A stretch of 64,000 bases of DNA, taken from NCBI RefSeq assembly GCF_036077095.1, contig NZ_CP107960.1, positions 5,394,001 to 5,458,000 of the forward strand. Direction: 5' to 3'. Position numbers and translations under genes: made by a program. Numbering within the stretch: the stretch's first letter is position 1; each line of letters starts with the position of its first letter. The notes beneath the pieces were generated by a model. The model was not told the origin of the DNA and searched no databases. It saw only the letters and a list, made by a program, of their open reading frames with translations. Source of the stretch: Streptomyces sp. NBC_00376 (GTDB lineage: Bacteria; Actinomycetota; Actinomycetes; Streptomycetales; Streptomycetaceae). Positions 1,523 through 15,251 of this stretch are shown piece after piece.

Positions 1523-1538
1523 AGTGGTAGAGACCACT
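1523..1538 (+). promoter_or_regulatory. DasR-responsive element (dre-like) upstream of the sugar ABC operon
   Basis: The 16-mer agtggtagagaccact is a near-perfect palindrome of the dre type (consensus resembling ACTGGTCTAGACCACT), deviating only in the central four bases. DasR is the GntR-family repressor that releases DNA on binding glucosamine-6-phosphate. The site lies 96 bp before the solute-binding protein start, consistent with control of the ABC/hexosaminidase operon. Confidence 0.75.
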
Positions 1539-1633
1539 TGTCGGCGTCTGCGTGCGCACCTACTCTCCTGCCAGTTGTGCAGTACGAAACGCTCGTTGCG
1601 TATGCTGCAACGCCAACCGGTAGGGGTTCCCGG

Positions 1634-2938
1634 ATGAAGCTGTCTGCCCGAATTGCCGCCCCGGCCGCAGCCCTTGTGCTGGCGGGTCTCACCGCCACCG
1701 CATGCGCGCCGCAGACCTCCGACACCGGAGCCGAGGGGGACGAGAAGACCGGCACACTGCGTGTCTGGCTCTTCCAGGAAGTCGGCAACAAGCCCAAGGA
1801 GCAGGTCGTCGACGCGGCGGTCGCCGACTTCGAGAAGGCCCACAAGGACGCGGAGGTCGAGATCGAGTACATACCGGTCGACACCCGCGCCCAGCGCATC
1901 AAGGCGGCGTTCAACGACCCGAAGAGCGCCCCGGACCTCATCGAGTACGGCAACACCGACACCGCCGGATACGTCAAGGACGGCGGACTCGCCGATGTGA
2001 GCGCCGAGTTCGCCGCCTGGGACGAGGCCAAGGACACCGACCCGACCGCCAAGCAGTCCGTGACGGCGGACGGCAAGATCTACGGCGCCCCGCTCTTCGT
2101 CGGTGTACGGGCGCTGTACTACCGCACGGACGTCTTCGAGGAACTGGGGATCGACGCCCCCAAGACCCAGGGCGAGCTGATCTCCACCGCGAAGAAGATC
2201 CACAAGAAGAAGCCGGACCTGTACGGGCTCGCGGTCGGCGGCGCGTACACCTACGGCGCGATGCCCTTCATCTGGTCGGCCGGCGGCGAACTCGCCGACG
2301 AGAGCGGCGGAACGTACAAGGCGGCCATCAACAGCGACAAGGCCCGCAAGGGCATCGAGGCCTACACCTCGCTCTTCGGCGACGACAACTGTCCGGCCGC
2401 CAAGTGCGCGGCCATGGGCGGCAACGCGACCGTCACCGCCTTCGCCTCCGGCAAGGCCGCCATGGCGATCGGCGGCGACTTCAGCCACGCGGCCGTCGAG
2501 GCGGGCTCGGTGAAGGGCAAGTACGCGGTGGTGCCGCTGCCCGGCGTCGCCGAGGGCTCCGTCGCCCCCGCCTTCGCGGGCGGGAACAACATCGGCGTGC
2601 TGAAGAGCAGCCCGCACCGCACGCTCGCCGTGGACCTGATGAAGACCCTGACCGGCAAGCAGACGCAGACCAAGATGTTCGACGCGATGGGCTTCCTGCC
2701 GACCTACACCGACGTACGGGACGCGGCCGCGAAGAAGGAGCCGTTCGTCGAGCCGTTCGTCAAGACGCTCGGCGCGGGCGCCAAGTTCGTCCCGGCCTCG
2801 CCGGGCTGGGGCCAGATCGACTCCTCGCTGGTCCTGCCGACGATGTTCCAGGAGATCGTCAGCGGCCGGAAGGACGTCGCGAAGGCCGCGGACGACGCGG
2901 CGAAGAAGATGGACGCGGCGTTCGCCGACGCGGGCTGA
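1634..2938 (+). CDS. Extracellular sugar-binding lipoprotein of an ABC importer
   Basis: A 434-residue family-1 solute-binding protein. It starts at ATG 1634, giving MKLSARIAAPAAALVLAGL then a lipobox LTATAC with the lipidated Cys at residue 24. The mature part contains GTLRVWLFQE, FEKAHKDAEVEIEYIPVD and a later ALYYRTDVFEELGI, typical of carbohydrate-binding SBPs. It sits outside the membrane and delivers substrate to the two permeases that follow 2 bp downstream. A DasR-like site upstream and a hexosaminidase downstream suggest a substrate of N-acetylglucosamine oligomers (inference). No ATPase gene is nearby; such Streptomyces importers commonly share MsiK. Confidence 0.9.
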   Translation: MKLSARIAAPAAALVLAGLTATACAPQTSDTGAEGDEKTGTLRVWLFQEVGNKPKEQVVDAAVADFEKAHKDAEVEIEYIPVDTRAQRIKAAFNDPKSAPDLIEYGNTDTAGYVKDGGLADVSAEFAAWDEAKDTDPTAKQSVTADGKIYGAPLFVGVRALYYRTDVFEELGIDAPKTQGELISTAKKIHKKKPDLYGLAVGGAYTYGAMPFIWSAGGELADESGGTYKAAINSDKARKGIEAYTSLFGDDNCPAAKCAAMGGNATVTAFASGKAAMAIGGDFSHAAVEAGSVKGKYAVVPLPGVAEGSVAPAFAGGNNIGVLKSSPHRTLAVDLMKTLTGKQTQTKMFDAMGFLPTYTDVRDAAAKKEPFVEPFVKTLGAGAKFVPASPGWGQIDSSLVLPTMFQEIVSGRKDVAKAADDAAKKMDAAFADAG

Positions 2939-2940
2939 CC

Positions 2941-3933
2941 ATGACCGCGAACAGTACGGCGTACAAAGCGCCCGGCACGCCCGGAACGGGTGGCACGTCC
3001 GGAGCGGGCGGCACCTCCGCCCGCCCGCTCCGGCGGCGCCGCCCGGCCCCGTCCGCGCGCCGCCCCGGCCGGACCCCCTGGCTCTATCTCCTGCCCGCGC
3101 TCGTCCTGCTCGGTGGGCTGCTCGTCTACCCGATCTACCAACTCGGCCTGATCTCCTTCCTGGAGTACACCCAGGCCCAGGTCAGCGGTGGTGAACCGAC
3201 CACCTTCCAGGGCTTCGGGAACTACGCGACGCTCTTCGGCGACGGCCAGTTCTGGCAGGTGCTGCTGGCGACCGTGGTCTTCGCCGCCACCTGCGTACTG
3301 GCCACCCTGCTCGTCGGCTGCGCGCTCGCCGTCCTGCTGACCCGCGTCCGGGCCCTGCCGCGGCTCGCCCTGATGATGGCCGCGCTCGGCGCCTGGGCGA
3401 CCCCGGCGATCACCGGGTCCACCGTCTGGGTGTTCCTCTTCGACCCCGACTTCGGACCGGTCAACAAGGTCCTGGGGCTCGGCGACTTCTCCTGGACGTA
3501 CGGGCGCTACAGCGCCTTCGCGCTGGTGCTCCTCGAAGTCCTGTGGTGCTCGTTCCCGTTCGTCATGGTGACCGTGTACGCGGGCATCCGGGCGATCCCC
3601 ACCGAGGTGCTGGAAGCGGCCGCGCTGGACGGTGCCTCGCAGTGGCGGATCTGGCGGTCGGTCATGGCCCCGATGCTGCGGCCGATCCTCGTCGTCGTCA
3701 CCATCCAGTCGATCATCTGGGACTTCAAGGTCTTCACCCAGATCTACGTCATGACGGGCGGCGGCGGCATCGCCGGCCAGAACCTGGTGCTCAACGTGTA
3801 CGCGTACCAGAAGGCGTTCGCGTCCTCGCAGTACAGCCTCGGCTCCGCGATCGGCGTCGTGATGCTGGTGATCCTGCTGGCCGTCACGCTCGTCTATCTG
3901 CGCCTGGTGCGGCGCCAGGGGGAGGAACTGTGA
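2941..3933 (+). CDS. Sugar ABC transporter permease 1
   Basis: A 330-residue inner-membrane permease starting at ATG 2941, 2 bp after the binding-protein stop. After a ~45-residue Gly/Thr/Arg-rich cytosolic N-terminus there are about six hydrophobic segments, the first being WLYLLPALVLLGGLLVYPIY. The EAAxxDGA coupling loop is visible as EAAALDGASQWRIWRSVMAPMLRP, where the ATPase docks. The family is the MalF-like binding-protein-dependent permeases. It pairs with the next gene, whose GTG start overlaps this stop by 4 bp, implying translational coupling. Confidence 0.9.
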   Translation: MTANSTAYKAPGTPGTGGTSGAGGTSARPLRRRRPAPSARRPGRTPWLYLLPALVLLGGLLVYPIYQLGLISFLEYTQAQVSGGEPTTFQGFGNYATLFGDGQFWQVLLATVVFAATCVLATLLVGCALAVLLTRVRALPRLALMMAALGAWATPAITGSTVWVFLFDPDFGPVNKVLGLGDFSWTYGRYSAFALVLLEVLWCSFPFVMVTVYAGIRAIPTEVLEAAALDGASQWRIWRSVMAPMLRPILVVVTIQSIIWDFKVFTQIYVMTGGGGIAGQNLVLNVYAYQKAFASSQYSLGSAIGVVMLVILLAVTLVYLRLVRRQGEEL

Positions 3934-4778
3934 GCGCACGGACCATGCTGCACGTCCGCCGGCCCGGCCGGCTGGCCGCCGAGGCCGCGACCCTGCTGAT
4001 AGCCGCCGCGGTCGCCTTCCCGCTCTACTGGATGGTGCTTTCCGCGCTCAAACCGGCCGGCGAGATCCAGTCCACCGACCCCCGCCCGTGGACGCTGTCG
4101 CCGTCCCTGGACTCGTTCCGCCGGGTCTTCGAACAGAACGACTTCGGGCGGTACTTCCTCAACAGCCTGCTCGTCGCCGGCACGGTCGTCATCGCCTCCG
4201 CGCTGATCGCCTTCCTGGCGGCGACGGCCGTGACCCGGTTCAGGTTCCGCTTCCGGACCACGCTGCTGATCATGTTCCTGGTCGCGCAGATGGTGCCGGT
4301 CGAGGCGCTGACCATCCCGCTGTTCTTCCTGATGCGGGACTTCGGCCAGCTGAACACGCTCGGCTCCCTGATCCTGCCGCACCTCGCCTTCTCGCTGCCG
4401 TTCGCGATCTGGATGCTGCGCGGCTTCGTCAAGGCCGTCCCGGAGGCTCTGGAGGAGGCCGCGTACATCGACGGCGCGAGCCGCACCCGCTTCCTGTGGC
4501 AGATCCTCTTCCCGCTGGTCTTCCCGGGCCTGGTGGCGACCAGCGTCTTCTCGTTCATCTCCACCTGGAACGACTTCCTGTTCGCGAAGTCGTTCATCAT
4601 CAGCGACACCTCCCAGTCGACGCTCCCCATGGCGCTGCTGGTCTTCTTCAAACCCGATGAGAACGACTGGGGAGGGATCATGGCCGCCTCGACGGTGATG
4701 ACCGTTCCCGTACTGGTCTTCTTCGTACTCGTACAGCGCCGCCTGGTCTCGGGACTCGGCGGAGCGGTAAAGGACTGA
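3930..4778 (+). CDS. Sugar ABC transporter permease 2
   Basis: A 282-residue MalG-like permease. The start is GTG 3930, overlapping the upstream TGA in a GTGA arrangement. Six membrane segments are evident, and the coupling loop reads EEAAYIDGASRTRFLWQILFPL. It forms the membrane channel with permease 1 and is the third gene of the DasR-linked operon. The stop at 4778 lies only 4 bp before the hexosaminidase start, so uptake and hydrolysis are expressed together. Confidence 0.9.
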   Translation: MSARTMLHVRRPGRLAAEAATLLIAAAVAFPLYWMVLSALKPAGEIQSTDPRPWTLSPSLDSFRRVFEQNDFGRYFLNSLLVAGTVVIASALIAFLAATAVTRFRFRFRTTLLIMFLVAQMVPVEALTIPLFFLMRDFGQLNTLGSLILPHLAFSLPFAIWMLRGFVKAVPEALEEAAYIDGASRTRFLWQILFPLVFPGLVATSVFSFISTWNDFLFAKSFIISDTSQSTLPMALLVFFKPDENDWGGIMAASTVMTVPVLVFFVLVQRRLVSGLGGAVKD

Positions 4779-4782
4779 CGCC

Positions 4783-6486
4783 ATGGAAACCGACAACGAC
4801 ACGAACCCGGCACCGGCGCCCGCAGACATCGTCCCGGCGCCCGCGCACATCGTCCCGGCACCCGTGGGCGCCGGTGGTGAAGGGCGCTGCGGCTTCCTGT
4901 TCGACCCGTCCACCACCATCACGGCGGCCCCCGGCACGGAGAACACCGAACGCTGGCTGCGCACCACGCTCGGCGCCGCCTTCGGTCTGCCGCTCGCCCC
5001 GCGGCCGGCCGCCGAGGGCCGCGAGCACGCCACGAACACCGTCCGGCTGGGCATCGACCCGGCACTGGAACCGGAGGGCTACCGGCTGAGCACCGGGACC
5101 GGCACATGCGTCGAGATCACCGGCGGCAGCCCCGCCGGGGTCTTCTGGGGCGCGCAGACCCTCCGTCAGCTCCTGGGCCCCGAGGCCTTCCGCCGCGCGC
5201 CCACCGCCCCCGGCACCCGGCGCGCCATCCCCTTCGCTGACATCGAGGACAGCCCCCGCTTCCCCTGGCGCGGAATGATGCTCGACGTCGCACGGCACTT
5301 CCTGCCCAAGGACGACGTGCTGCGCTACCTCGACCTCCTCGCCGCACACAAGCTGAACGTCTTCCACTTCCACCTCACCGACGACCAGGGCTGGCGCATC
5401 GAGATCAAGCGCTTCCCCCGGCTCACCGAGGTCGGCTCCTGGCGCTCCCGCACGAAGCACGGCCACCGGGCGTCCGAGCTGTGGGACGAGACCCCGCACG
5501 GCGGTCACTACACGCAGGACGACATTCGCGAGATCGTCGCTTACGCCGCCGAGCGGCACATCCGGGTCGTCCCCGAGATCGACATCCCCGGCCACTCGCA
5601 GGCCGCCATCGCCGCCTACCCCGAACTGGGCAACACCGACGTCGTCGACACCACCGCCCTCTCCGTCTGGGACACCTGGGGCATCAACTCGAACGTACTC
5701 GCCCCCACCGACAACACCCTGCGCTTCTTCGAAGGCGTCCTCGAAGAGGTCCTCGACCTCTTCCCCGCCGCCACCTCGCCGTTCATCCACATCGGCGGCG
5801 ACGAATGCCGCAAGGAGCAGTGGAAGGACTCGCCGGTCGCCCAGGCCCGGATCGAGGAATTCGGCCTGGCCAACGAGGACGAGCTGCAGTCCTGGATCAT
5901 CCGGCACTTCGACACCTGGCTCACCGCGCGCGGGCGCCGGCTGATCGGCTGGGACGAGATCCTGGAGGGCGGCCTCCCGGCGGGCGCCGCCGTGTCGTCC
6001 TGGCGGGGTTACGGCGGAGGCATCGCCGCCGCCGAGGCCGGCCACGACGTCGTCATGTGCCCCGAGCAGCACGTGTACCTGGACCACCGTCAGGACGGCG
6101 GCCCCGACGAGCCGATGCCCATCGGCTTCGTCCGCACCCTGGAGGACGTCTACCGCTTCGAGCCCGTACCGGCGGGCCTCTCCGAGGAGGCGGCCCGTCA
6201 CATCCTGGGCACCCAGGCCAATGTCTGGACCGAGGTGATGCAGAACCGGTCCCGCGTCGACTACCAGGTCTTCCCGCGCCTCGCGGCGTTCGCGGAGGTC
6301 GCCTGGTCGCCGCTGCCCGCCCCCGCCGAGCGGGACTTCGCCGGCTTCGAAAGCCGAATGACCACGCACTACGCCCGGCTCGACGCCCTCGGCGTCGACT
6401 ACCGGCCGCCGGGCGGCCCGTTGCCCCGGCAGCAGCGCCCCGGCGTGCTGGGCCGGCCCATCGACGGGGTGCCCCCGAACGTGTGA
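4783..6486 (+). CDS. Beta-N-acetylhexosaminidase, glycoside hydrolase family 20
   Basis: A 567-residue GH20 enzyme that removes terminal N-acetylhexosamine from chitooligosaccharides. The catalytic Asp-Glu pair is in FIHIGGDECRKEQW (D340, E341), where the Asp orients the substrate acetamido group and the Glu is the acid. The conserved HFHLTDDQGWRIEIK and PGHSQAAIAAYPE blocks precede it. The GH20b domain occupies roughly residues 40-160 and the barrel 165-530. No signal peptide is evident: the N-terminus METDNDTNPAPAPAD is hydrophilic, suggesting cytosolic processing of imported oligomers. It is the last gene of the DasR-linked operon. The S. coelicolor counterpart appears to be the HexP-type enzyme (from memory, not checked). 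Confidence 0.92.
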   Translation: METDNDTNPAPAPADIVPAPAHIVPAPVGAGGEGRCGFLFDPSTTITAAPGTENTERWLRTTLGAAFGLPLAPRPAAEGREHATNTVRLGIDPALEPEGYRLSTGTGTCVEITGGSPAGVFWGAQTLRQLLGPEAFRRAPTAPGTRRAIPFADIEDSPRFPWRGMMLDVARHFLPKDDVLRYLDLLAAHKLNVFHFHLTDDQGWRIEIKRFPRLTEVGSWRSRTKHGHRASELWDETPHGGHYTQDDIREIVAYAAERHIRVVPEIDIPGHSQAAIAAYPELGNTDVVDTTALSVWDTWGINSNVLAPTDNTLRFFEGVLEEVLDLFPAATSPFIHIGGDECRKEQWKDSPVAQARIEEFGLANEDELQSWIIRHFDTWLTARGRRLIGWDEILEGGLPAGAAVSSWRGYGGGIAAAEAGHDVVMCPEQHVYLDHRQDGGPDEPMPIGFVRTLEDVYRFEPVPAGLSEEAARHILGTQANVWTEVMQNRSRVDYQVFPRLAAFAEVAWSPLPAPAERDFAGFESRMTTHYARLDALGVDYRPPGGPLPRQQRPGVLGRPIDGVPPNV

Positions 6487-6548: not shown

Positions 6549-6820
6549 GTCCGGAACTCGCTCTGTCGGAACGGGACGCGGCAACGAAGCGCCAGAACAG
6601 AACAATCAGTCATGAGCCATGCCGAAGAGCTGCAATTCACACTCTGCACCGAAGCGGGGTGAAACGGGAACATTCCCCTGATCGGGGATGGATACGCCCT
6701 TCGCGGACCCTCGCGTCGGTCCGATCCGAAGATGTGCCAGAGTTGCCACGTCCAGGCCTTGAGCACGTACCGTACGGCGAAACAGCCGGACAGCCGGGAC
6801 ACCGGGAAGGGGCAGCTGGG
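6549..6820 (+). promoter_or_regulatory. Leader region of the molybdoenzyme cluster
   Basis: This spacer precedes the probable TTG start at 6821. The reading frame of the FAD subunit stays open from 6659, but the upstream codons look non-coding. A short palindrome, cccctgatcgggg, lies near 6674-6687. No promoter could be assigned with confidence. Confidence 0.35.
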
Positions 6821-7717
6821 TTGACCACGCACGCACCGCAGGCGACGCAGTCCGTGACGCTGCCGGCCTCGCTCGACGAGGCCGTGGCGGCGCTCAGCGC
6901 CATGCCCGCCGCCGTTCCCGTGGCGGGCGGCACGGACCTGATGGCGGCCGTCAACAAGGGGCTGCTGCGCCCCTCCGGCCTGGTCGGCCTCGGCCGGATC
7001 AGTGAGCTGCGCGGCTGGCACTACCAGGACGGCCACGCCCTGCTCGGCGCCGGCCTCACCCACGCACGCATGGGGCGGCCCGACTTCGCGGCCCTGATCC
7101 CCGCACTGGCCGCGTCGGCGCGCGCCGCCGGCCCGCCCCAGATCCGTAACGCCGGAACGCTCGGCGGCAACATCGCCACCGCGGCCCCGACCGGCGACGC
7201 CCTCCCGGTGCTCGCCGCGCTGGAGGCCGAGCTGGTCATCGCGGGTCCGGGCGGCGCCCGGCGCGAGATCCCCGTCTCGCACCTGCTGGCCGGCCGCGAC
7301 ATGCTCGAACCCGCCGAACTCATCGGCTTCGTCCGGGTGCCGCTGCTGCACGCTCCCCAGGTCTTCCTGAAGGCCACCGGCCGTACCGGCCCCGGCCGCG
7401 CCACCGCGTCCGTCGCGATCGTCCTCGACCCGGCCCGGCGCGGGGTGCGCTGCGCGGTCGGCGCCATCGCACCGATGCCGCTGCGGCCGCTGGAGGCCGA
7501 ACGCTGGATCGCCTCGCTGATCGACTGGGACGGCGAACGGGGCCTGGCCCCCGACGCGCTGGCCGCCTTCGGCGAGTACGTCGCCGCGGCCTGCATCCCG
7601 GACCAGGAACCACCCGCCGACGGGGGAGAGGCACAACCGCTGCCCCCCGCCGTACTGCACCTGCGGCGGACCGTCGCCGCGCTGGCCCGACGCGCGCTGG
7701 GGAGGGCACTGTCGTGA
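6821..7717 (+). CDS. FAD-binding subunit of a xanthine dehydrogenase-family complex
   Basis: A CoxM/XdhB-type flavoprotein of 298 residues if started at TTG 6821, preceded by a purine-rich ggaagggg. FAD contacts are visible in PVAGGTDLMAAVNKG near residue 35 and TLGGNIATAAPTGDALPVLAAL near residue 115. Both match the FAD_binding_5 signatures. It would pass electrons between the 2Fe-2S subunit and an external acceptor. The stop overlaps the next gene's GTG start by 4 bp. An upstream start in the same open frame (6659) cannot be excluded but would add unconserved-looking sequence. Confidence 0.85.
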   Translation: MTTHAPQATQSVTLPASLDEAVAALSAMPAAVPVAGGTDLMAAVNKGLLRPSGLVGLGRISELRGWHYQDGHALLGAGLTHARMGRPDFAALIPALAASARAAGPPQIRNAGTLGGNIATAAPTGDALPVLAALEAELVIAGPGGARREIPVSHLLAGRDMLEPAELIGFVRVPLLHAPQVFLKATGRTGPGRATASVAIVLDPARRGVRCAVGAIAPMPLRPLEAERWIASLIDWDGERGLAPDALAAFGEYVAAACIPDQEPPADGGEAQPLPPAVLHLRRTVAALARRALGRALS

Positions 7718-9630
7718 GCAACGAGGACCGCAACGATCAGCACGGGCAGCAGGAGCACCTGCAGCACGGGGGCTGGCAGCCGACGCCGCAGGGCGGCGAG
7801 TACGACGCGGAGGCGACCGCCTTCGTCCACCTGCCGCCGGAGGACCTGGCGAACATCCCGCTGGCCGCACCCGGCCACGGCTACGTACCGCCGATGATCG
7901 TTCCGCTGACCCCCGCGGCCGGGCTCGACCCGTCGGCCACGGGCAGCTGGGTCGTGCAGACGCAGAGCCAGCAGGAGCGCGGTACGGGGGCGGAGCAGCA
8001 GGCCCCCGAGACGGTGCACTGGCCGGACCCGAACCAGCAGCAGGGCCCGTACGACTACGAGTACGAGTACCCGCAGCAGGCTCCCCACGCCCCACAGGCT
8101 CCCCACGCCCCGCAGCTCCCGCACGATCCGTATGCGCAGGAGCAGTACCAGCAGAGCCCGGCGGCCACGGGCCAGTGGAACTTCACCGAGTCCACGGAGT
8201 TCGGCGTCCACACGGGCCAGGCCGGACAGGCGGGGCTCGCCGATCACGTCGACCACACCGGTCAGCACGGCGACAGCACCGGGCACACGGGGCACACCGA
8301 CCACACCGGGCACACGGGTCAGTGGACGATTCCGGTCGCCGACGGTGATCTCCCGGAGGAATCCGGCGAGTTCGCGGCCTCGGCCCTGGCCGCCCAGTGG
8401 TATGGGGACCGGACCCCGCCGGCCACGCTGCCGGGCGGTGCGCCCGCGCCGTGGGCGACGCAGGAGCCGGCCCCGGAGCCCGCCCACGAGGAGCCCGAGG
8501 CCGAGTTCGCGGCGGAGCCCGCACTCCTGGCGGACATAGAGCCGGAGCACGCGCCGGAAGCCGGGTTCGAGCAGCAGCAGCCGTCGGTCGAGGCGTCGTC
8601 CGTGACGTACGAAGACGTCCTGCGCGCCCCCGAGGCCGTTGCCCCTGCGGAGACGGAGGCCGCCCCCGTACCCGACGGAGGCGCCCCGCACCCCGTCGAT
8701 GCGGCCCCCGAGCCGGCGAAGCCCGCGGGACCCCCCCTCGAAACCGCCGCAGAAACCGCCGCAGAAACCGCTCCGGTAACCGCTCCGGAAGCTGTCCCCG
8801 ACACAGTCCCTGACACCACTTCCGAACCCGACGCAAACAACGTCACCTCCGAGCAGCCGGCGGAGGCCGCGCCCGAGGACCCGGAGCAGGAAGCGGCTTC
8901 GGCGACCGCACAGGCCGGGGCGACCGATCCCGAATCACCCCCCGAGGAACCCCGGCCCCTCGATCCCCAGCCGGTCGACTCCCAGCCGGTCGACCCCGCC
9001 CCGCTCGGCGTTCCCGACGACCGCCCGGCCGCCTCCTACGTCCTGCACGTGAACGGCGCCGACCGCCCCGTCGCCGACGCCTGGATCGGCGAGTCGCTCC
9101 TCTACGTGCTGCGCGAGCGCCTCGGCCTCGCGGGCGCCAAGGACGGCTGCTCGCAGGGCGAGTGCGGCGCGTGCAACGTCCAGGTGGACGGCAGGCTGGT
9201 CGCCTCCTGCCTGGTCCCCGCGGCCACCGCGGCCGGCAGCGAGGTCCGTACGGTCGAGGGCCTCGCCGTGGACGGCGAGCCGTCCGACGTCCAGCGCGCC
9301 CTCGCCAAGTGCGGTGCCGTCCAGTGCGGCTTCTGCATCCCCGGCATGGCCATGACCGTCCACGACCTGCTGGAGGGCAACCACGCCCCCAGCGAGCTGG
9401 AGACGCGCCAGGCGCTCTGCGGAAACCTCTGCCGCTGTTCCGGCTACCGCGGTGTCCTCGACGCCGTCAACGAGGTCATCGCGGGCCGCGAGGCCGACAC
9501 CGGCACCGGCACCGACCCCGCCTCGTCGGACTCCACGTCCCCGGAGCCCGACGAGGCCCGCATTCCGCACCAGGCGGCCCCCGGCGCCGGTAGCGTCCAG
9601 TCGCACCCGCAGGACGGAGGCATGGCGTGA
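7714..9630 (+). CDS. 2Fe-2S subunit of the molybdoenzyme, with a ~440-residue disordered N-terminal extension
   Basis: A 638-residue protein; stand-alone CoxS-type subunits are normally about 160-180 residues. The ferredoxin and helical domains occupy residues ~442-600. The plant-type cluster motif is CSQGECGAC (C479, C484, C487), with the second cluster in QCGFCIPG (C538, C541) and CGNLCRCSGYRG. Residues 1-440 are rich in Gln, Pro, Glu, Ala and His, including QQEHLQHGG, DYEYEYPQQAPHAPQAPHAP and an HTGHTDHTGHTGQ tract, with no recognisable domain. GTG 7714 overlaps the FAD-subunit stop and the stop overlaps the Moco subunit's start. The extension may serve in protein interaction or localisation; that is inference. 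Confidence 0.88.
   Translation: MSNEDRNDQHGQQEHLQHGGWQPTPQGGEYDAEATAFVHLPPEDLANIPLAAPGHGYVPPMIVPLTPAAGLDPSATGSWVVQTQSQQERGTGAEQQAPETVHWPDPNQQQGPYDYEYEYPQQAPHAPQAPHAPQLPHDPYAQEQYQQSPAATGQWNFTESTEFGVHTGQAGQAGLADHVDHTGQHGDSTGHTGHTDHTGHTGQWTIPVADGDLPEESGEFAASALAAQWYGDRTPPATLPGGAPAPWATQEPAPEPAHEEPEAEFAAEPALLADIEPEHAPEAGFEQQQPSVEASSVTYEDVLRAPEAVAPAETEAAPVPDGGAPHPVDAAPEPAKPAGPPLETAAETAAETAPVTAPEAVPDTVPDTTSEPDANNVTSEQPAEAAPEDPEQEAASATAQAGATDPESPPEEPRPLDPQPVDSQPVDPAPLGVPDDRPAASYVLHVNGADRPVADAWIGESLLYVLRERLGLAGAKDGCSQGECGACNVQVDGRLVASCLVPAATAAGSEVRTVEGLAVDGEPSDVQRALAKCGAVQCGFCIPGMAMTVHDLLEGNHAPSELETRQALCGNLCRCSGYRGVLDAVNEVIAGREADTGTGTDPASSDSTSPEPDEARIPHQAAPGAGSVQSHPQDGGMA
8250..8325 (+). repeat. Short in-frame tandem repeats encoding His-Thr-Gly units
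   Basis: Repeats of about 9-12 bp of the type cacaccgggcacacg encode STGHTGHTDHTGHTGQ inside the N-terminal extension of the 2Fe-2S subunit. They are coding micro-repeats rather than a mobile or CRISPR structure. Confidence 0.75.
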
Positions 9631-11978
9631 GCAACGACGCAGCCACCGCTGCCAACGCGACCAGCACACGGATCACCACCCCGGCGGGCACCGTCCCGAC
9701 GGCCGAGGGCCCCGACACCGAGACGCCCGTACTCGGCCTCGGCGTCTCGCTGCCGCCCGCCGACGCGCGCGCCAAGACCGAGGGCACCTTCCCGTACGCC
9801 GCCGACCTCTGGGCCGAGGGCCTGCTCTGGGCGGCCGTCCTGCGCTCCCCGCACCCGCACGCCCGCATCCTGTCCATCGACACCTCGGCCGCCGTCGAGA
9901 TGACGGGGGTGCAGGCCGTCATCACGCACGAGGACATCCCGGGCGAGAGCGCGTACGGACGCCGGGTCGTCGACCGTCCGGTCTTCGCCTCCGACCTGGT
10001 CCGCCACCACGGCGAGCCGATCGCCGCGGTCGCCGCCGACCACCCCGACACGGCCAGGCTCGCCGCCGCGGCCATCGCCGTCCAGTACGAGGTCCTCGAC
10101 CCGGTCACCGACCCGGAGAAGGCCTTCGCCGCCGAACCGCTGCACCCCGACGGCAACCTGATCCGCCACATCCCGCTGCGCTACGGAGACCCCGACGCCA
10201 CCGGCGAGTTCGTCGTCGAGGGCCTGTACCGCATCGGCCGCCAGGACCCGGCTCCCATCGGCGCCGAGGCCGGGCTCGCCGTGCCCCGCCCCGACGGCGG
10301 CGTGGAGATCTACACCGCCTCCACCGACCCGCACACCGACCGCGACCTCGCCGCCGCCTGCTTCGGCCTCGAACCGGAGCGGGTGAAGGTCGTCGTCACG
10401 GGCGTCCCCGGCGCGACCGGCGACCGCGAGGAACCCGGCTTCCAGCTCCCGCTCGGCCTGCTCGCACTGCGCACCGGCTGCCCGGTGAAGCTGGCCGCCA
10501 CCCGCGAGGAGTCCTTCCTCGGCCACTCCCACCGGCACCCGACGCTACTGCGCTACCGCCACCACGCGGACGCCGACGGCCGGCTGGTGAAGGTCGAGGC
10601 GCAGATCCTGCTCGACGCGGGTGCCTACGCCGACTCCTCGTCCGAGTCGCTGGCCGCCGCGGTCGCGTTCGCCTGCGGCCCGTACGTCGTCCCGCACGCG
10701 TTCATCGAGGGCTGGGCGGTCCGTACGAACAACCCGCCGTCGGGGCACGTCCGGGGCGAGGGCGCGATGCAGGTCTGCGCCGCGTACGAGGGCCAGATGG
10801 ACAAGCTGGCCGCCAAGCTCGGCATCGACCCGGTCGAACTGCGCCTGCGCAACGCCCTGTCCACCGGCGACATCCTGCCCACCGGCCAGACGGTGACCTG
10901 CCCCGCACCCGTCGCCGAACTCCTCGCCTCCGTACAGGACTTCCCCCTCCCCGCGCTCCCCAAGGACGCCCCGGAGGACGACTGGCTGCTCCCCGGCGGC
11001 CCCGAGGGCGCGGGCGAACCCGGTGCGGTGCGCCGGGGGGTCGGCTACGCGCTGGGCATGGTCCACATGCTCGGCGCGGAGGGCGCCGACGAGGTCTCCA
11101 CGGCCACGGTCAGGGTCCACGACGGCATCGCCACGGTCATCTGCGCGGCGGTCGAGACGGGTCAGGGCTTCTCGACCCTCGCCCGCCAGGTCGTCCAGGA
11201 GACCCTGGGCATCGAAGAGGTCCACGTGGCCTCCGTCGACACCGACCAGCCCCCGGCCGGCCCGGCGACGCACGGCCGCCACACCTGGGTCTCGGCCGGG
11301 GCGGTGGAACGCGCCGCCAAGATGGTCCGCACCCAGCTCCTCCAGCCCCTGGCCCACAAGTTCGGCATGTCCACGGAGCTGCTGCAGATCGCCGACGGCA
11401 AGATCACCTCGTACGACGGTGTGCTGTCCACGACGGTCACCGAGGCCATGGACGGCAAGGAACTCTGGGCCACCGCCCAGTGCCGCCCCCACCCGACCGA
11501 ACCCCTCGACGAATCCGGCCAGGGCGACGCCTTCGTCGGCCTCGCCTTCTGCGCGATCCGCGCGGTGGTGGACGTCGACATCGAGCTCGGCTCCGTCCGG
11601 GTCGTGGAGATGGCGGTCGCCCAGGACGTCGGCCGGGTCCTCAACCCGTCCCAGCTCGCGACCCGCATCGAGGCCGGCATCACCCAGGGAATCGGCGCCG
11701 CCCTCACCGAGAACCTCCGCAGCGCCCGCGGCCTGATCCGCCACCCCGACCTCACCGGCTACACCCTCCCGACCGCGCTGGACGCCCCCGAGATCCGCAT
11801 CGTCAAACTCATCGAGGAACGAGACGTGGTGGCCCCCTTCGGCGCCAAGCCCGCCTCGGCGGTCCCCGTGGTGACGTCCCCGGCAGCAGTGGCCGCAGCC
11901 GTACGAGCCGCCACCGGCCGCCCGATAAACCGCCTCCCCATCAGGCCCCAGGCAGCGGTGGCGGCCCCCAACTCCTGA
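9627..11978 (+). CDS. Molybdopterin-binding large subunit, xanthine dehydrogenase family, with degenerate active-site motifs
   Basis: A 783-residue CoxL/XdhA-like protein from GTG 9627. The N-terminal a/b-hammerhead domain (LWAAVLRSPHPHARI, then IPGESAYGRRVVDRPVFA) and the Moco domains are recognisable by position. However, the usual GGGFG[G]K loop reads GVPGATGDREEPGF, the RGFGxPQ motif reads RGEGAMQ, and the C-terminal GAKGVGE block that carries the catalytic glutamate reads GAKPASA, putting Ala745 where Glu is expected. The C-terminal helix AAVAAAVRAATGRPINRLP is intact. Third gene of a GTGA-overlapping trio. It may be a non-canonical hydroxylase or a non-catalytic scaffold; the substrate is unknown. 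Confidence 0.85.
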   Translation: MSNDAATAANATSTRITTPAGTVPTAEGPDTETPVLGLGVSLPPADARAKTEGTFPYAADLWAEGLLWAAVLRSPHPHARILSIDTSAAVEMTGVQAVITHEDIPGESAYGRRVVDRPVFASDLVRHHGEPIAAVAADHPDTARLAAAAIAVQYEVLDPVTDPEKAFAAEPLHPDGNLIRHIPLRYGDPDATGEFVVEGLYRIGRQDPAPIGAEAGLAVPRPDGGVEIYTASTDPHTDRDLAAACFGLEPERVKVVVTGVPGATGDREEPGFQLPLGLLALRTGCPVKLAATREESFLGHSHRHPTLLRYRHHADADGRLVKVEAQILLDAGAYADSSSESLAAAVAFACGPYVVPHAFIEGWAVRTNNPPSGHVRGEGAMQVCAAYEGQMDKLAAKLGIDPVELRLRNALSTGDILPTGQTVTCPAPVAELLASVQDFPLPALPKDAPEDDWLLPGGPEGAGEPGAVRRGVGYALGMVHMLGAEGADEVSTATVRVHDGIATVICAAVETGQGFSTLARQVVQETLGIEEVHVASVDTDQPPAGPATHGRHTWVSAGAVERAAKMVRTQLLQPLAHKFGMSTELLQIADGKITSYDGVLSTTVTEAMDGKELWATAQCRPHPTEPLDESGQGDAFVGLAFCAIRAVVDVDIELGSVRVVEMAVAQDVGRVLNPSQLATRIEAGITQGIGAALTENLRSARGLIRHPDLTGYTLPTALDAPEIRIVKLIEERDVVAPFGAKPASAVPVVTSPAAVAAAVRAATGRPINRLPIRPQAAVAAPNS

Positions 11979-12433
11979 GCCCCGTACGGATGTCGCACTC
12001 CGGGTCGCCGGCGCGACCCGGAGGTACACGGTGTCGCCAGTCGTCGGCTGCCTTCAGGAGTCGTCGAGCGGGCGACATGTGCGGTGCGTACGCTACGGCT
12101 CGGGACTGACCAGGTAGGCCGGAGACAGGAGGCCGGGGCCGTCCTTCGCGTCGCCCCGGCCGCACGGCCATCCACCGACGAACGGTTCCGGATGGGTACG
12201 TGCGTACCGCTGGTCCGATCCCGCTTTCTGGAGGCCAATTTCGGAGTCGGAGGGGCTCTTTTCGGGCAACTACGCATCCGCACCGCGCCCCTGGGCATTG
12301 CGCTTCGACTCGGGAGTTCTTTATGAATATCGTCCCGCTTGTCTGGTGCCATTGGGGAAGGATCCGATGATGTGCCGGGGGCGCCACGTTCTTCGGGCAG
12401 GGCCGCCAACCGGGAAGAGCTTTGGGGGATTTC
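11979..12433 (+). other. 455-bp spacer between the molybdoenzyme cluster and the WXG module
   Basis: It begins with a hairpin, ctccgggtcgc (11998-12008) and gcgacccggag (12013-12023), probably terminating the molybdoenzyme operon. The rest, from about 12050, is less GC-rich than its surroundings and presumably holds the promoter of the next operon. A short open frame at 12084-12326 has no recognisable product. Confidence 0.5.
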
Positions 12434-12868
12434 GTGACGTTTGACGAGGAATGGGCGGAGCTTCGCGATGCGGCGGCCGCGCGGCGGAGTGCCATGCAGA
12501 TCAACAGCGTCCCGGCCGAGGGCGGCGGTAGCGGGGGTGGCGCCCCCGACCTGGTGGTCAACCGGGACTCCCTCGGCGCCATCGGGAACGACGCCTACGA
12601 CCTGCGGATCCGGTTGTCGAAGGAGGGGGACCGTGCCCGTCCCGCTACGTTCGACGCGGCGATCGCGCTGACCAACGGCAACTTCGCGAGCGGTTCGGCG
12701 GTGCTCAAGGTGCACGACTTCTGGAAGACCCACCTGAAGACGCTGCTGGATTCCCTCGCGCACATCTCGAACCACCTGGATTACACCAAGGCTCAGCATG
12801 CGAAGGACGAAGCGAAGGTCGAGGGGGATCTGGCGCCGATCTCCAAGCTCACGGAATACATGAAGTAA
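12434..12868 (+). CDS. Small helical protein, probable WXG100-like partner
   Basis: A 144-residue protein from GTG 12434, chosen because ggggga lies 5-6 bp upstream; a TTG at 12422 is an alternative. It has an N-terminal helix (FDEEWAELRDAAAARRSAM), a Gly-rich linker, then a long helical C-terminus (HDFWKTHLKTLLDSLAHISNHL) resembling an Esx-type hairpin, although no strict WXG motif is present. It is 19 bp upstream of the large WXG/DUF6571-like protein. In Streptomyces such small proteins accompany larger type VII-like substrates, so I infer a heterodimer partner or chaperone. Confidence 0.6.
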   Translation: MTFDEEWAELRDAAAARRSAMQINSVPAEGGGSGGGAPDLVVNRDSLGAIGNDAYDLRIRLSKEGDRARPATFDAAIALTNGNFASGSAVLKVHDFWKTHLKTLLDSLAHISNHLDYTKAQHAKDEAKVEGDLAPISKLTEYMK

Positions 12869-12887
12869 GGGTCGGGGGAGCGCGCAC

Positions 12888-15251
12888 ATGCTGAAGTACG
12901 ACGACTTGATCGACGCCCCGGTAGCGAAACTGAAGTCCGCGGTCGACGACTGGGACAAGATGGCGAGCGATCTGGACAAGCTCGCCGATGACGCGGCCAA
13001 GGGTATGAAGGTCAAGTCGGACAAGGCGGACTGGGAGGGCCTCAACGCGGGCGTCACCAAGGCGTTCGTCACCAAGACGGCCAAGGAGTTCGCGGACGCC
13101 GCAGCCGAGGCCAAGGGCGTGAAGGCGATCCTCGAAGAGGGGCACGCGGCCATCAAAAAGGCCAAGGACGACCTGATCAACATCCGGGACCACGAAGGAC
13201 CCGCGGCAGGGATCAAGGTGGATGGCAAGGGCACGGTCACGGCGCGGCACCCGGTGCAGGAGTCCCTGGTGGCCAGGCATGATCCCGACTACTCCGCGAT
13301 GCTCCAGCAGGAGAGGAAGAACGTCGAGTCGTGGCAGAAGAGGATCGACCTCATCGTCGACAACTGCAACGACACCGACGTGTCCTTCAAGAACTCCCTC
13401 GAAGCCAATGTCACCGATCGCAAGGACTTCACCGCCCCCAAGTACACGAAGATGGACCAGGAGGAGGCCGCCCGGGCCGCCCGCCTTGCCGCCAAGGGCC
13501 GCGACCTCACGCACAAGGAGCTCCAGGCGCTCAACGAGCTGTTGAAAGACAACAGCGATTCGAGAGAGTTCTCGACGAACTTCTACAGGAAGCTCGGGCC
13601 AGAGGGGGCGCTTGCCTTCTTCGGGCAGCTCTCCCAGGACACATACGACCACCCCAAGCTCGATGAGCAGCGACTCAAGGACGTCCAGGAACTCCAGAAG
13701 AACTTGGGGCTCAATCTGGCCAACGCCTCCGAGGACACGGATTTCACCAAGAAGTGGGGCCCGGAGCTCCGCAAGATGGGTACGGAACGCATCCCGCTGC
13801 AAAAGAACGAATACGGTGGTGCGTTCGGCTACCAGCTGCTCGGCGGCATCATGCGGTACGGAAACTACGACGCGAAGTTCCTCAACCCGATAGCCGAGCA
13901 CGTGGCGCAGCTGCACCAGAAGAACCCGGACATGTTCCGGGGGAACAGTCTGGTGACCATCCCCGTCAAAAACCCCTTCAACCCGTCCGGTCTCAACGGC
14001 GCCGGTTACGACCCGGTCGCCTCCATGCTGGAGGCGTTGGGGCACAGCCCGGAAGCGGCAAAGCAGTTCTTCACCGACGATCCGACGGCCTACAACGAGG
14101 ACGGCACGGTCGACGAGAGTGCGACGGCGAACCTTGGCAAGGACAAGGATGGCAAGGCCATCGGGAACTATCTCGACTTCTTCGGTAACGAGAAGTGGCA
14201 GCCCTTCGGGGACGTCGACATGCACACCCCGAAGGAGATGAAGGAGTCGCTCGGGTATGTGCCGGATGCGCTGGGTCACGCACTGGAGGCGGCGACTCTC
14301 GGGTACCCGTACGACAGTCCAGATGCCAGCGTTGTGCGGGATGCGGACAATGCCACTGTCATGCGGGACGTCATGGAGAAATATGGCGCGGACGCGGGCT
14401 TGCTCAAGAAGCAGGAAGCGATGTCCGACAGCCTGGGGATCATGGGTGCCGGCTACATCGACGACATCAACTGGTCGCTGGAAAAGAACGAACCCGACAG
14501 CGTCTTCGTTCCAGGAAAGAACCCGGAAGGCCACCTCAACTTCTCCACTGAGAACAGTGACGGCGTCAAAGACAACGGCAGACTAGTCGCCCGCGAATTC
14601 CTGAGTTCCTTGGGTCAGCACCCCGACTCGTACGCGACTGTCTCCAACGCCGAGCAGATCTACAGCACCAGCATGCTGGAACGGCAGGTGACTCCGGAGG
14701 GTGAGATCAAAAATACCGGTGCTGCGCGGGCAGTGGTCGGCACGGGTGCCGAGGTGCAGGGCATGCTTGACCAGTCTCGCGCGGATCAGATCGAGGCGAC
14801 GAACCTCAAAACCCATGAGGACTACGAGAAGGCAGTGGCGGCGAGGTCGGGCTGGATGGAGTTCGGAACCGGCGTGGGGGTCGCTGCCGGGGTCGCCTTT
14901 CTGCCACCGATCGCGGCGGCAGGGACAGCAGCAACACTCATCACGCTGGGAAGCGATACGGCCAGCGGCGCCGTGGAGCATGTCATTGGCCAGTTTGTTG
15001 GGGACATCTCGGATAAGTCAGTGGATGAGCACAAGAAAGAGGTCGAGGAACTCACTCGCGAGGAGAAGACCAGGGTGTTTCGGGCCGGCGAGTCCATGGC
15101 CGAGGCGCCCATGGAAGGCTTCCTGAAGCGCCATGCGCCTGCTGTCGACGACGATTTCCGCCAGGACTTGAAGGAGTCGATGACGGGCGGGTACGCAAAG
15201 GGGAATCAACGTGAGGACCAGCAGGGCAGCGATCCCGAGACCGGAGACTGA
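12888..15251 (+). CDS. WXG-domain/DUF6571-like large protein of a type VII-secretion-like module
   Basis: A 787-residue protein. Residues 1-110 form an Esx-like alpha-helical hairpin with WEG at 49-51 in place of WXG (KADWEGLNAGVTKAFV). The middle resembles the Streptomyces DUF6571 family: DLTHKELQALNELLKDNS, then EFSTNFYRKLGPEGALAFF and LGHSPEAAKQFF. Near residues 660-690 there is a hydrophobic segment, GVAAGVAFLPPIAAAGTAA. The C-terminus (MTGGYAKGNQREDQQ) is polar, with no toxin domain that I recognise. The lipoprotein gene downstream overlaps its last ~40 bp. I infer an exported or surface-associated structural protein; no enzymatic activity can be assigned. Confidence 0.65.
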   Translation: MLKYDDLIDAPVAKLKSAVDDWDKMASDLDKLADDAAKGMKVKSDKADWEGLNAGVTKAFVTKTAKEFADAAAEAKGVKAILEEGHAAIKKAKDDLINIRDHEGPAAGIKVDGKGTVTARHPVQESLVARHDPDYSAMLQQERKNVESWQKRIDLIVDNCNDTDVSFKNSLEANVTDRKDFTAPKYTKMDQEEAARAARLAAKGRDLTHKELQALNELLKDNSDSREFSTNFYRKLGPEGALAFFGQLSQDTYDHPKLDEQRLKDVQELQKNLGLNLANASEDTDFTKKWGPELRKMGTERIPLQKNEYGGAFGYQLLGGIMRYGNYDAKFLNPIAEHVAQLHQKNPDMFRGNSLVTIPVKNPFNPSGLNGAGYDPVASMLEALGHSPEAAKQFFTDDPTAYNEDGTVDESATANLGKDKDGKAIGNYLDFFGNEKWQPFGDVDMHTPKEMKESLGYVPDALGHALEAATLGYPYDSPDASVVRDADNATVMRDVMEKYGADAGLLKKQEAMSDSLGIMGAGYIDDINWSLEKNEPDSVFVPGKNPEGHLNFSTENSDGVKDNGRLVAREFLSSLGQHPDSYATVSNAEQIYSTSMLERQVTPEGEIKNTGAARAVVGTGAEVQGMLDQSRADQIEATNLKTHEDYEKAVAARSGWMEFGTGVGVAAGVAFLPPIAAAGTAATLITLGSDTASGAVEHVIGQFVGDISDKSVDEHKKEVEELTREEKTRVFRAGESMAEAPMEGFLKRHAPAVDDDFRQDLKESMTGGYAKGNQREDQQGSDPETGD

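Follow-up and report, generated by a model that had tools for sequence, protein, structure and literature searches.

In the closest described systems, the E748A exchange in KdhL leaves no detectable activity, about a quarter of kcat is left after F269A, and about 70% after R383A (PMC8305194). Simulations of mouse AOX3 have Q772 and E1266 holding the Mo centre through hydrogen bonds (PMC3864932), and a Gly-to-Arg exchange in human AOX1 (G1269R), one position ahead of the Glu, yields a protein that is folded but devoid of Moco (PMC6487702). XdhC chaperones are described as acting in the insertion of sulfurated Mo-MPT; the R. capsulatus protein is presented as the only member studied in detail, and the xdhC mutant of that species makes XDH without Mo-MPT that keeps its FeS centres and FAD (PMC2997495). 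The XdhR-controlled xdhABC operon of S. coelicolor is counted as the xanthine dehydrogenase of that species (PMC6627660), and a Streptomyces synteny study names xanthine dehydrogenase in its list of annotated clusters (PMC13118837). Searches of the open-access literature, as far as its accessible texts go, for a pseudoenzyme, SCO2940-2946 or a Streptomyces xanthine dehydrogenase found no description of the variant reported here.

The window, by which we mean the whole stretch of 64,000 nucleotides from Streptomyces sp. NBC_00376, contains three plus-strand genes for an FAD subunit, an FeS subunit and a large subunit, each junction being a 4-nt overlap. The genes, domains and upstream neighbour are as follows.

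4783..6486, + strand: GH20 beta-N-acetylhexosaminidase, a conserved upstream neighbour and not a subunit (domain match, synteny).
6659..7717, + strand: FAD subunit (PF00941); the start is uncertain and the first stretch may be non-coding.
7714..9630, + strand: 2x[2Fe-2S] subunit, sharing 4 nt with each of its neighbours, the FAD gene and the large-subunit gene.
7714..9039, + strand: long N-terminal extension of low complexity in the FeS subunit, its length varying between species.
9040..9477, + strand: [2Fe-2S] domains, about residues 443-588 of the FeS subunit, with eight ligand Cys present.
9627..11978, + strand: large (molybdopterin-type) subunit, a putative A-type pseudo-hydroxylase of 783 aa with a GTG start (domain matches and alignments).

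By domain content the large subunit is a regular member of its family. In a profile search, PF01315, PF02738 and PF20256 each scored above the curated cut-off, and the family set of a/b hammerhead, MoCoBD_1 and MoCoBD_2 is complete within the 783 residues. None of the 14 NCBIfam models listed for it reached its curated cut-off, the top score being that of PucD (TIGR03196, xanthine dehydrogenase subunit D) with 648.5 bits against an equivalog cut-off of 783.65. The best-scoring solved chain was the alpha subunit of 4-hydroxybenzoyl-CoA reductase (1rm6), with an alignment near full length. The host genome (G000, 10.04 Mb) holds other family members, the nearest paralogue (G000:C1:1817578) showing 44% identity, and a plasmid search found no record at 60% identity or more. 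Database entries label the protein 'xanthine dehydrogenase family subunit'.

To describe the molybdenum site, we refer to alignment rows as A-, D- and E-type. The 216 A-type rows comprise the window protein, 120 database proteins (the best 120 of 7790 hits), 79 of 80 named loci, and 16 loci from other genera of the family. The named loci are mostly from Streptomyces, with a few from Actinacidiphila and Kitasatospora, and some strains are possibly counted twice; the 16 other-genera loci were assigned to the A-type after the motifs had been seen, and a tree computed without the motif columns agrees with the grouping for those 16. The 39 E-type rows consist of 20 from outside the family and 19 Streptomycetaceae paralogues. 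Five places in the large-subunit gene matter most.

10323..10325, + strand: Thr233 codon, in place of the Gln that hydrogen-bonds the apical Mo=O; T in 216/216 A-type and Q in 39/39 E-type rows.
10407..10430, + strand: altered GGFGG loop, PGATGDRE (residues 261-268), from the alignment of A- and E-type rows.
10752..10754, + strand: Arg376 codon, the pterin Arg of RGFG, kept; R in 214/216 A-type rows.
10758..10760, + strand: Glu378 codon, in place of the RGFG Phe; E in 216/216 A-type rows, F in 36 and L in 3 of 39 E-type rows.
11859..11861, + strand: Ala745 codon, at the catalytic Glu position (KdhL E748); A in 216/216 A-type, D in 6/6 D-type and E in 39/39 E-type rows.

The C-terminal block aligns with 1rm6 without gaps (PFGAKEASEGML / PFGAKPASAVPV), and we therefore place Ala745 at the position of the catalytic Glu, where the alignment to the 39 E-type relatives puts it as well; an earlier note on this DNA had proposed this exchange from the window alone. 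The A-type rows contain no Asp or Glu anywhere between positions 736 and 760 (216/216). The changes persist among orthologues, Ala745, Glu378 and Thr233 being present in every A-type row, and the Thr233 exchange adds to those that the earlier note had listed. At position 378, Glu was seen in none of the six D-type rows (P in five, S in one) and none of the 39 E-type rows. We take positions 745 and 233 to correspond to bovine E1261 and Q767 (the apical-oxo Gln), respectively, and the retained pterin-stabilising Arg and Gln residues to correspond to R912, Q1040 and Q1194. The equivalents of both AOX3 Q772 and AOX3 E1266 are changed in the window protein. Because KdhL loses all detectable activity on the same Glu-to-Ala exchange, our analysis indicates that canonical hydroxylation has very probably been lost.

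The two other motifs, GGGFG[G]K and RGFGxPQ, had been described in the earlier note as missing. They are altered rather than absent, since R376, E268 and most pterin-contact residues are retained. The loop reads PGATGDRE in the window protein and GGAFGxRE in E-type rows, and the second motif reads RGEGAMQ against mostly RGFGAVQ. The Phe of GGFGG, invariant in the 39 E-type rows, is Thr264 in the window protein, and the position drifts among the 216 A-type rows (T 131, M 75, others 10). Retention in the same rows is 214 for E268, 214 for R376, 208 for Q687 and 198 for Q513. The pterin-stabilising Arg and Gln residues are thus found in the window protein and most A-type rows, and two loci from other genera, L052 (genus g10) and L057 (genus g15), each from a single genome, have lost R376, Q513 and Q687 together while keeping Glu378, Thr233 and Ala745.

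The claim that the partner subunits keep all their ligands held for the iron-sulfur clusters and in part for FAD. All eight ligand Cys are present in the window and kept in 16/16 loci from other genera; in the named loci they are complete in 77/77 for one cluster and 76/77 for the other, with one gap. PF00941 was found in all eight FAD subunits tested, whereas PF03450, the C-terminal domain of the FAD subunit, was detected in none of three A-type and all of three E-type proteins tested; the FAD subunit of the window has PF00941 and gave no PF03450 match. Two D-type FAD subunits were mixed for this domain, one lacking a match and one having a match below the cut-off. Two extra Cys, C533 and C569 (window 9310-9312 and 9418-9420), lie beside the ligands of one [2Fe-2S] cluster, and both are present in 63 of 93 A-type rows.

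The N-terminal arm of the FeS subunit ranges from 14 to 894 aa, with a median of 363, in 69 named loci, and short motifs recur in it: AT[AM][FH]V in 59 of the 69, PGHGYxPP in 52, W[STN]xP[VF] in 56 and [DE]SGE[FY] in 60. The arm as an A-type-specific feature was ruled out, as some D-type loci have long stretches before the domain and several A-type loci almost none. A search of the host genome for the arm motif ESGE[FY], with one Ser and one Gly codon choice fixed, gave six places and no convincing partner: one was the FeS gene itself (L180), four had unrelated contexts, and the last (L181, window about 25945) was judged from the ORF listing.

Of the 80 named loci, 67 reach far enough upstream to show the gene order (13 are too short), and 64 of these 67 have hexosaminidase-FAD-FeS-large. 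The exceptions were two loci without a hexosaminidase match, L098 (a D-type Embleya) and L171, and one locus scored with FeS before FAD; no hexosaminidase match was found at five other D-type loci. Upstream of the operon, window 1538-6486 encodes a solute-binding-like protein, two permease-like genes (by eye) and the GH20 hexosaminidase, a set resembling an amino-sugar uptake locus. Downstream, at 12422-15251, are two genes that by eye look WXG100/type VII-associated. From synteny and annotation, SCO2940 is likely the S. coelicolor orthologue of the large subunit: SCO2944 and SCO2945 are listed as sugar permease subunits (PMC4852450), and SCO2940 is annotated as a putative xanthine dehydrogenase (PMC3770449). 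SCO2940 is included in an iTRAQ protein data set, where it is one of nine genes for which the combined method alone called a difference between the growth phase and the stationary phase (PMC3770449). The A-type protein is probably expressed.

A-type-level matches are widespread in the genus. In the genus sample, 194 of 199 genomes had a best match with an E value of 0, a level reached by no E-type row in the family and class searches, and five (G008, G050, G119, G171 and G178) had no A-type-level match. All 61 genomes of the family sample gave matches, 54 of them at A-type level (one, G212, in two pieces); the remaining seven, from genera g2 and g5, showed 51-53% identity, and each of the five loci examined among them has Asp at 745, as does Embleya hyalina. 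Embleya and another genus form this D-type sister clade, with Asp at the catalytic site in 6/6 rows. The class search gave matches at 1e-100 in 55 of 197 genomes. Of these 55, 39 lie outside the genus, and the loci examined from 20 of the 39 were all E-type. A tree of 67 rows (23 A-type, 5 D-type and 39 E-type) was computed by a quick method with the motif columns removed and with SH-aLRT support, without bootstrap. It placed the A-type rows on a single branch (SH-aLRT 97) and the D-type on another (100), and it grouped A and D against the E-type (100). Two changes suffice to explain the E, D and A labels on this motif-free tree, so we infer that one lineage lost the Glu, its D-type branch now carrying Asp and its A-type branch Ala. 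L052 and L057 are the two deepest A-type branches. Eight relatives carry one stop within the matched range (G034, G208, G217, G229, G232, G239, G242 and G412), of which G217 is D-type and the other seven are at A-type level; some of these stops may precede the true start.

The A-type subunit is kept nearly as tightly as the canonical paralogue, if slightly less so. Over 45 pairs of 10 genomes, mean identity was 0.725 and mean dN 0.208 for the A-type, against 0.759 and 0.190 for the canonical paralogue in the same pairs, and the A-type was the more conserved in 10/45. Median omega was 0.41 against 0.37, from a simple count in GC-rich DNA that is usable only as a comparison. Compared with its counterparts in three genomes of the genus, G088, G095 and G067, the window protein shows 81, 86 and 87% identity; for the canonical paralogue the values are 84, 91 and 90%. 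At 434 of 736 sites the A-type is at least 97% fixed. Twenty-four sites are fixed differently in A- and E-type, 7 of which fall within 55 pocket-window positions (p = 0.0011, an optimistic value, as the windows were chosen after the motifs had been seen). The new pocket residues are fixed and not drifting, a pattern that fits a vestigial site but equally one that has been repurposed.

The cofactor supply was examined through XdhC and Moco biosynthesis genes. The host genome has seven XdhC_CoxI matches at four places; the paralogues near 1.82, 0.39 and 8.48 Mb adjoin three of these, and no family member was found at the fourth (8.01 Mb). No XdhC match lies near the window locus (5.40 Mb); a maturation gene of this type usually accompanies members of the family without strictly defining them. 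This is weak evidence, since other paralogues of the same genome, near 8.09 and 8.55 Mb, likewise lack an adjacent XdhC match. In the genus sample, with 28 candidates scored per genome and all candidates for G043 and G135, no XdhC match was found in 5 of 199 genomes (G043, G113, G135, G156 and the incomplete G050); of the five, G050 alone lacks an A-type-level match. A MoCoBD_1 search covered the host genome and nine of the eleven single-match genomes (all except G008 and G050). The A-type gene is the sole MoCoBD_1 (PF02738) match in G043, G113 and G135, and the other six genomes have 2 to 4 matches. These three genomes keep T233, E378 and A745 and also R376, Q513 and Q687. G043 has all four syntenic genes; the contigs of G113 and G135 end within or shortly before the FeS gene. 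Since MoaA and MoaC matches are present in all three, Moco is probably available to them. A MoaA match was missing from 3 of 199 genus genomes (G002, G050 and G079), of which only G002 is near-complete, and G002 was rejected as a natural Moco-free genome, having MoaC, MoeA and four MoCoBD_1 matches. One of 393 genomes (G538) gave no MoaC match, and it has MoeA. The gaps in G002 and G538, both near-complete Streptomyces genomes, are possibly assembly gaps.

We consider it somewhat more probable than not that the locus encodes a conserved pseudo-hydroxylase, an FAD/2x[2Fe-2S] redox or scaffold complex without Mo hydroxylation. Its basis is the residue changes and their fixation, the FAD-binding domain, the eight Cys, the gene overlaps and the synteny. 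Further support comes from G043, G113 and G135, where the A-type gene is the sole PF02738 match and no XdhC match was found, from the loss of pterin residues in L052 and L057, and from the dN of 0.208 against 0.190. On the other hand, most A-type rows keep pterin-contact residues, more than a dead pocket needs, G043, G113 and G135 retain R376, Q513 and Q687 together with MoaA and MoaC matches, and conservation is slightly higher in the canonical paralogue than in the A-type. The locus would then have originated as an old PucD-like molybdenum hydroxylase paralogue in Streptomycetaceae whose hydroxylase centre was lost when Asp (D-type branch) or Ala (A-type branch) took the place of the Glu, and which was then kept as a pseudo-hydroxylase. 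The complex would still assemble, and the FAD and the two clusters would exchange electrons among themselves and with some partner that is not a substrate bound at Mo. The large subunit may serve as a scaffold or partner-docking body, with the old Mo pocket holding no competent sulfido-Mo cofactor, and the FeS subunit may dock a partner through its low-complexity arm.

The same retained residues keep alive a rebuilt Mo site, given the invariance of Glu378: Moco could still be bound and support a different chemistry, with Glu378, in the place of the substrate-stacking Phe of RGFG, as a relocated carboxylate beside Mo, in a site reshaped by Thr233 and the altered loop. We regard this as possible, though clearly the less probable reading. 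Glu378 is confined to the A-type rows, the pterin residues are largely kept and the pocket windows are enriched in differing sites, yet L052 and L057 carry Glu378 without any of the three checked pterin residues, three genomes retain the complex with no XdhC match, and three Mo-site residues (the equivalents of Q767, F798 and E1261) are gone at once. In its lineage-wide form, a redesign in which the catalytic carboxylate moved from GxGE to the RGFG loop and serves a Mo chemistry not yet described for the family, the idea is a tentative one. The earlier note had left the choice between a new mechanism and a non-catalytic complex: the loss of canonical hydroxylation is well supported, the non-catalytic option gains weight from G043, G113 and G135 and from L052 and L057, and the new-mechanism option keeps some weight through the invariant Glu378 in the place of the active-site Phe.

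Improbable, to our judgement, is an old active site that now binds a small molecule or a peptide of a partner, the subunit acting as a sensor that gates electron flow through FAD and clusters; the fixed new pocket residues and the remodelled C-terminal domain of the FAD subunit would fit it, but no ligand, partner or regulatory link was found, and the arm-motif search of the host genome had no convincing hit. That the protein is an ordinary hydroxylase tolerating the exchanges is very doubtful, as its nearly full-length homology to the family has to be set against a Glu in 39/39 ordinary relatives and the inactivity of the KdhL Ala exchange. Gene decay or a sequencing artefact is scarcely credible, for despite the stop in seven A-type-level relatives and the five genus genomes lacking such a match, the signature is present in 216/216 A-type rows, a match with an E value of 0 in 194/199 genus genomes, and the likely orthologue SCO2940 in the iTRAQ protein data (PMC3770449).

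If the locus encodes a pseudo-hydroxylase, it would be a natural, strongly conserved one, with an Asp form in the sister clade, and would make it possible to test how, step by step, a molybdoenzyme loses its cofactor chemistry but keeps its electron-transfer chain. Owing to the database name, models of purine salvage may count the A-type protein as a xanthine dehydrogenase. Compared with known systems, the locus shares domain order, three-subunit gene set and near-whole-length alignment with the PucD/XdhA-type paralogue G000:C1:1817578 (row L078), but that paralogue has GGAFG, RGFG and GIGEAP and lies about 2 kb from an XdhC match, none of which is found here. The solved chain 1rm6 likewise differs from the window protein, with a GGGFG loop and with Glu in place of Ala745. 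Kdh (6-hydroxypseudooxynicotine dehydrogenase, 7dqx) has separate MCD, FAD and 2x[2Fe-2S] subunits, as here, and its E748 is essential, the window equivalent being Ala (PMC8305194). AOX1 G1269R and demolybdo-XOR offer a model only for how such a protein may work, as an XO-family protein that is folded although its Mo pocket is empty (PMC6487702); they are a human variant and enzyme preparations, whereas the form in the window is fixed across its lineage.
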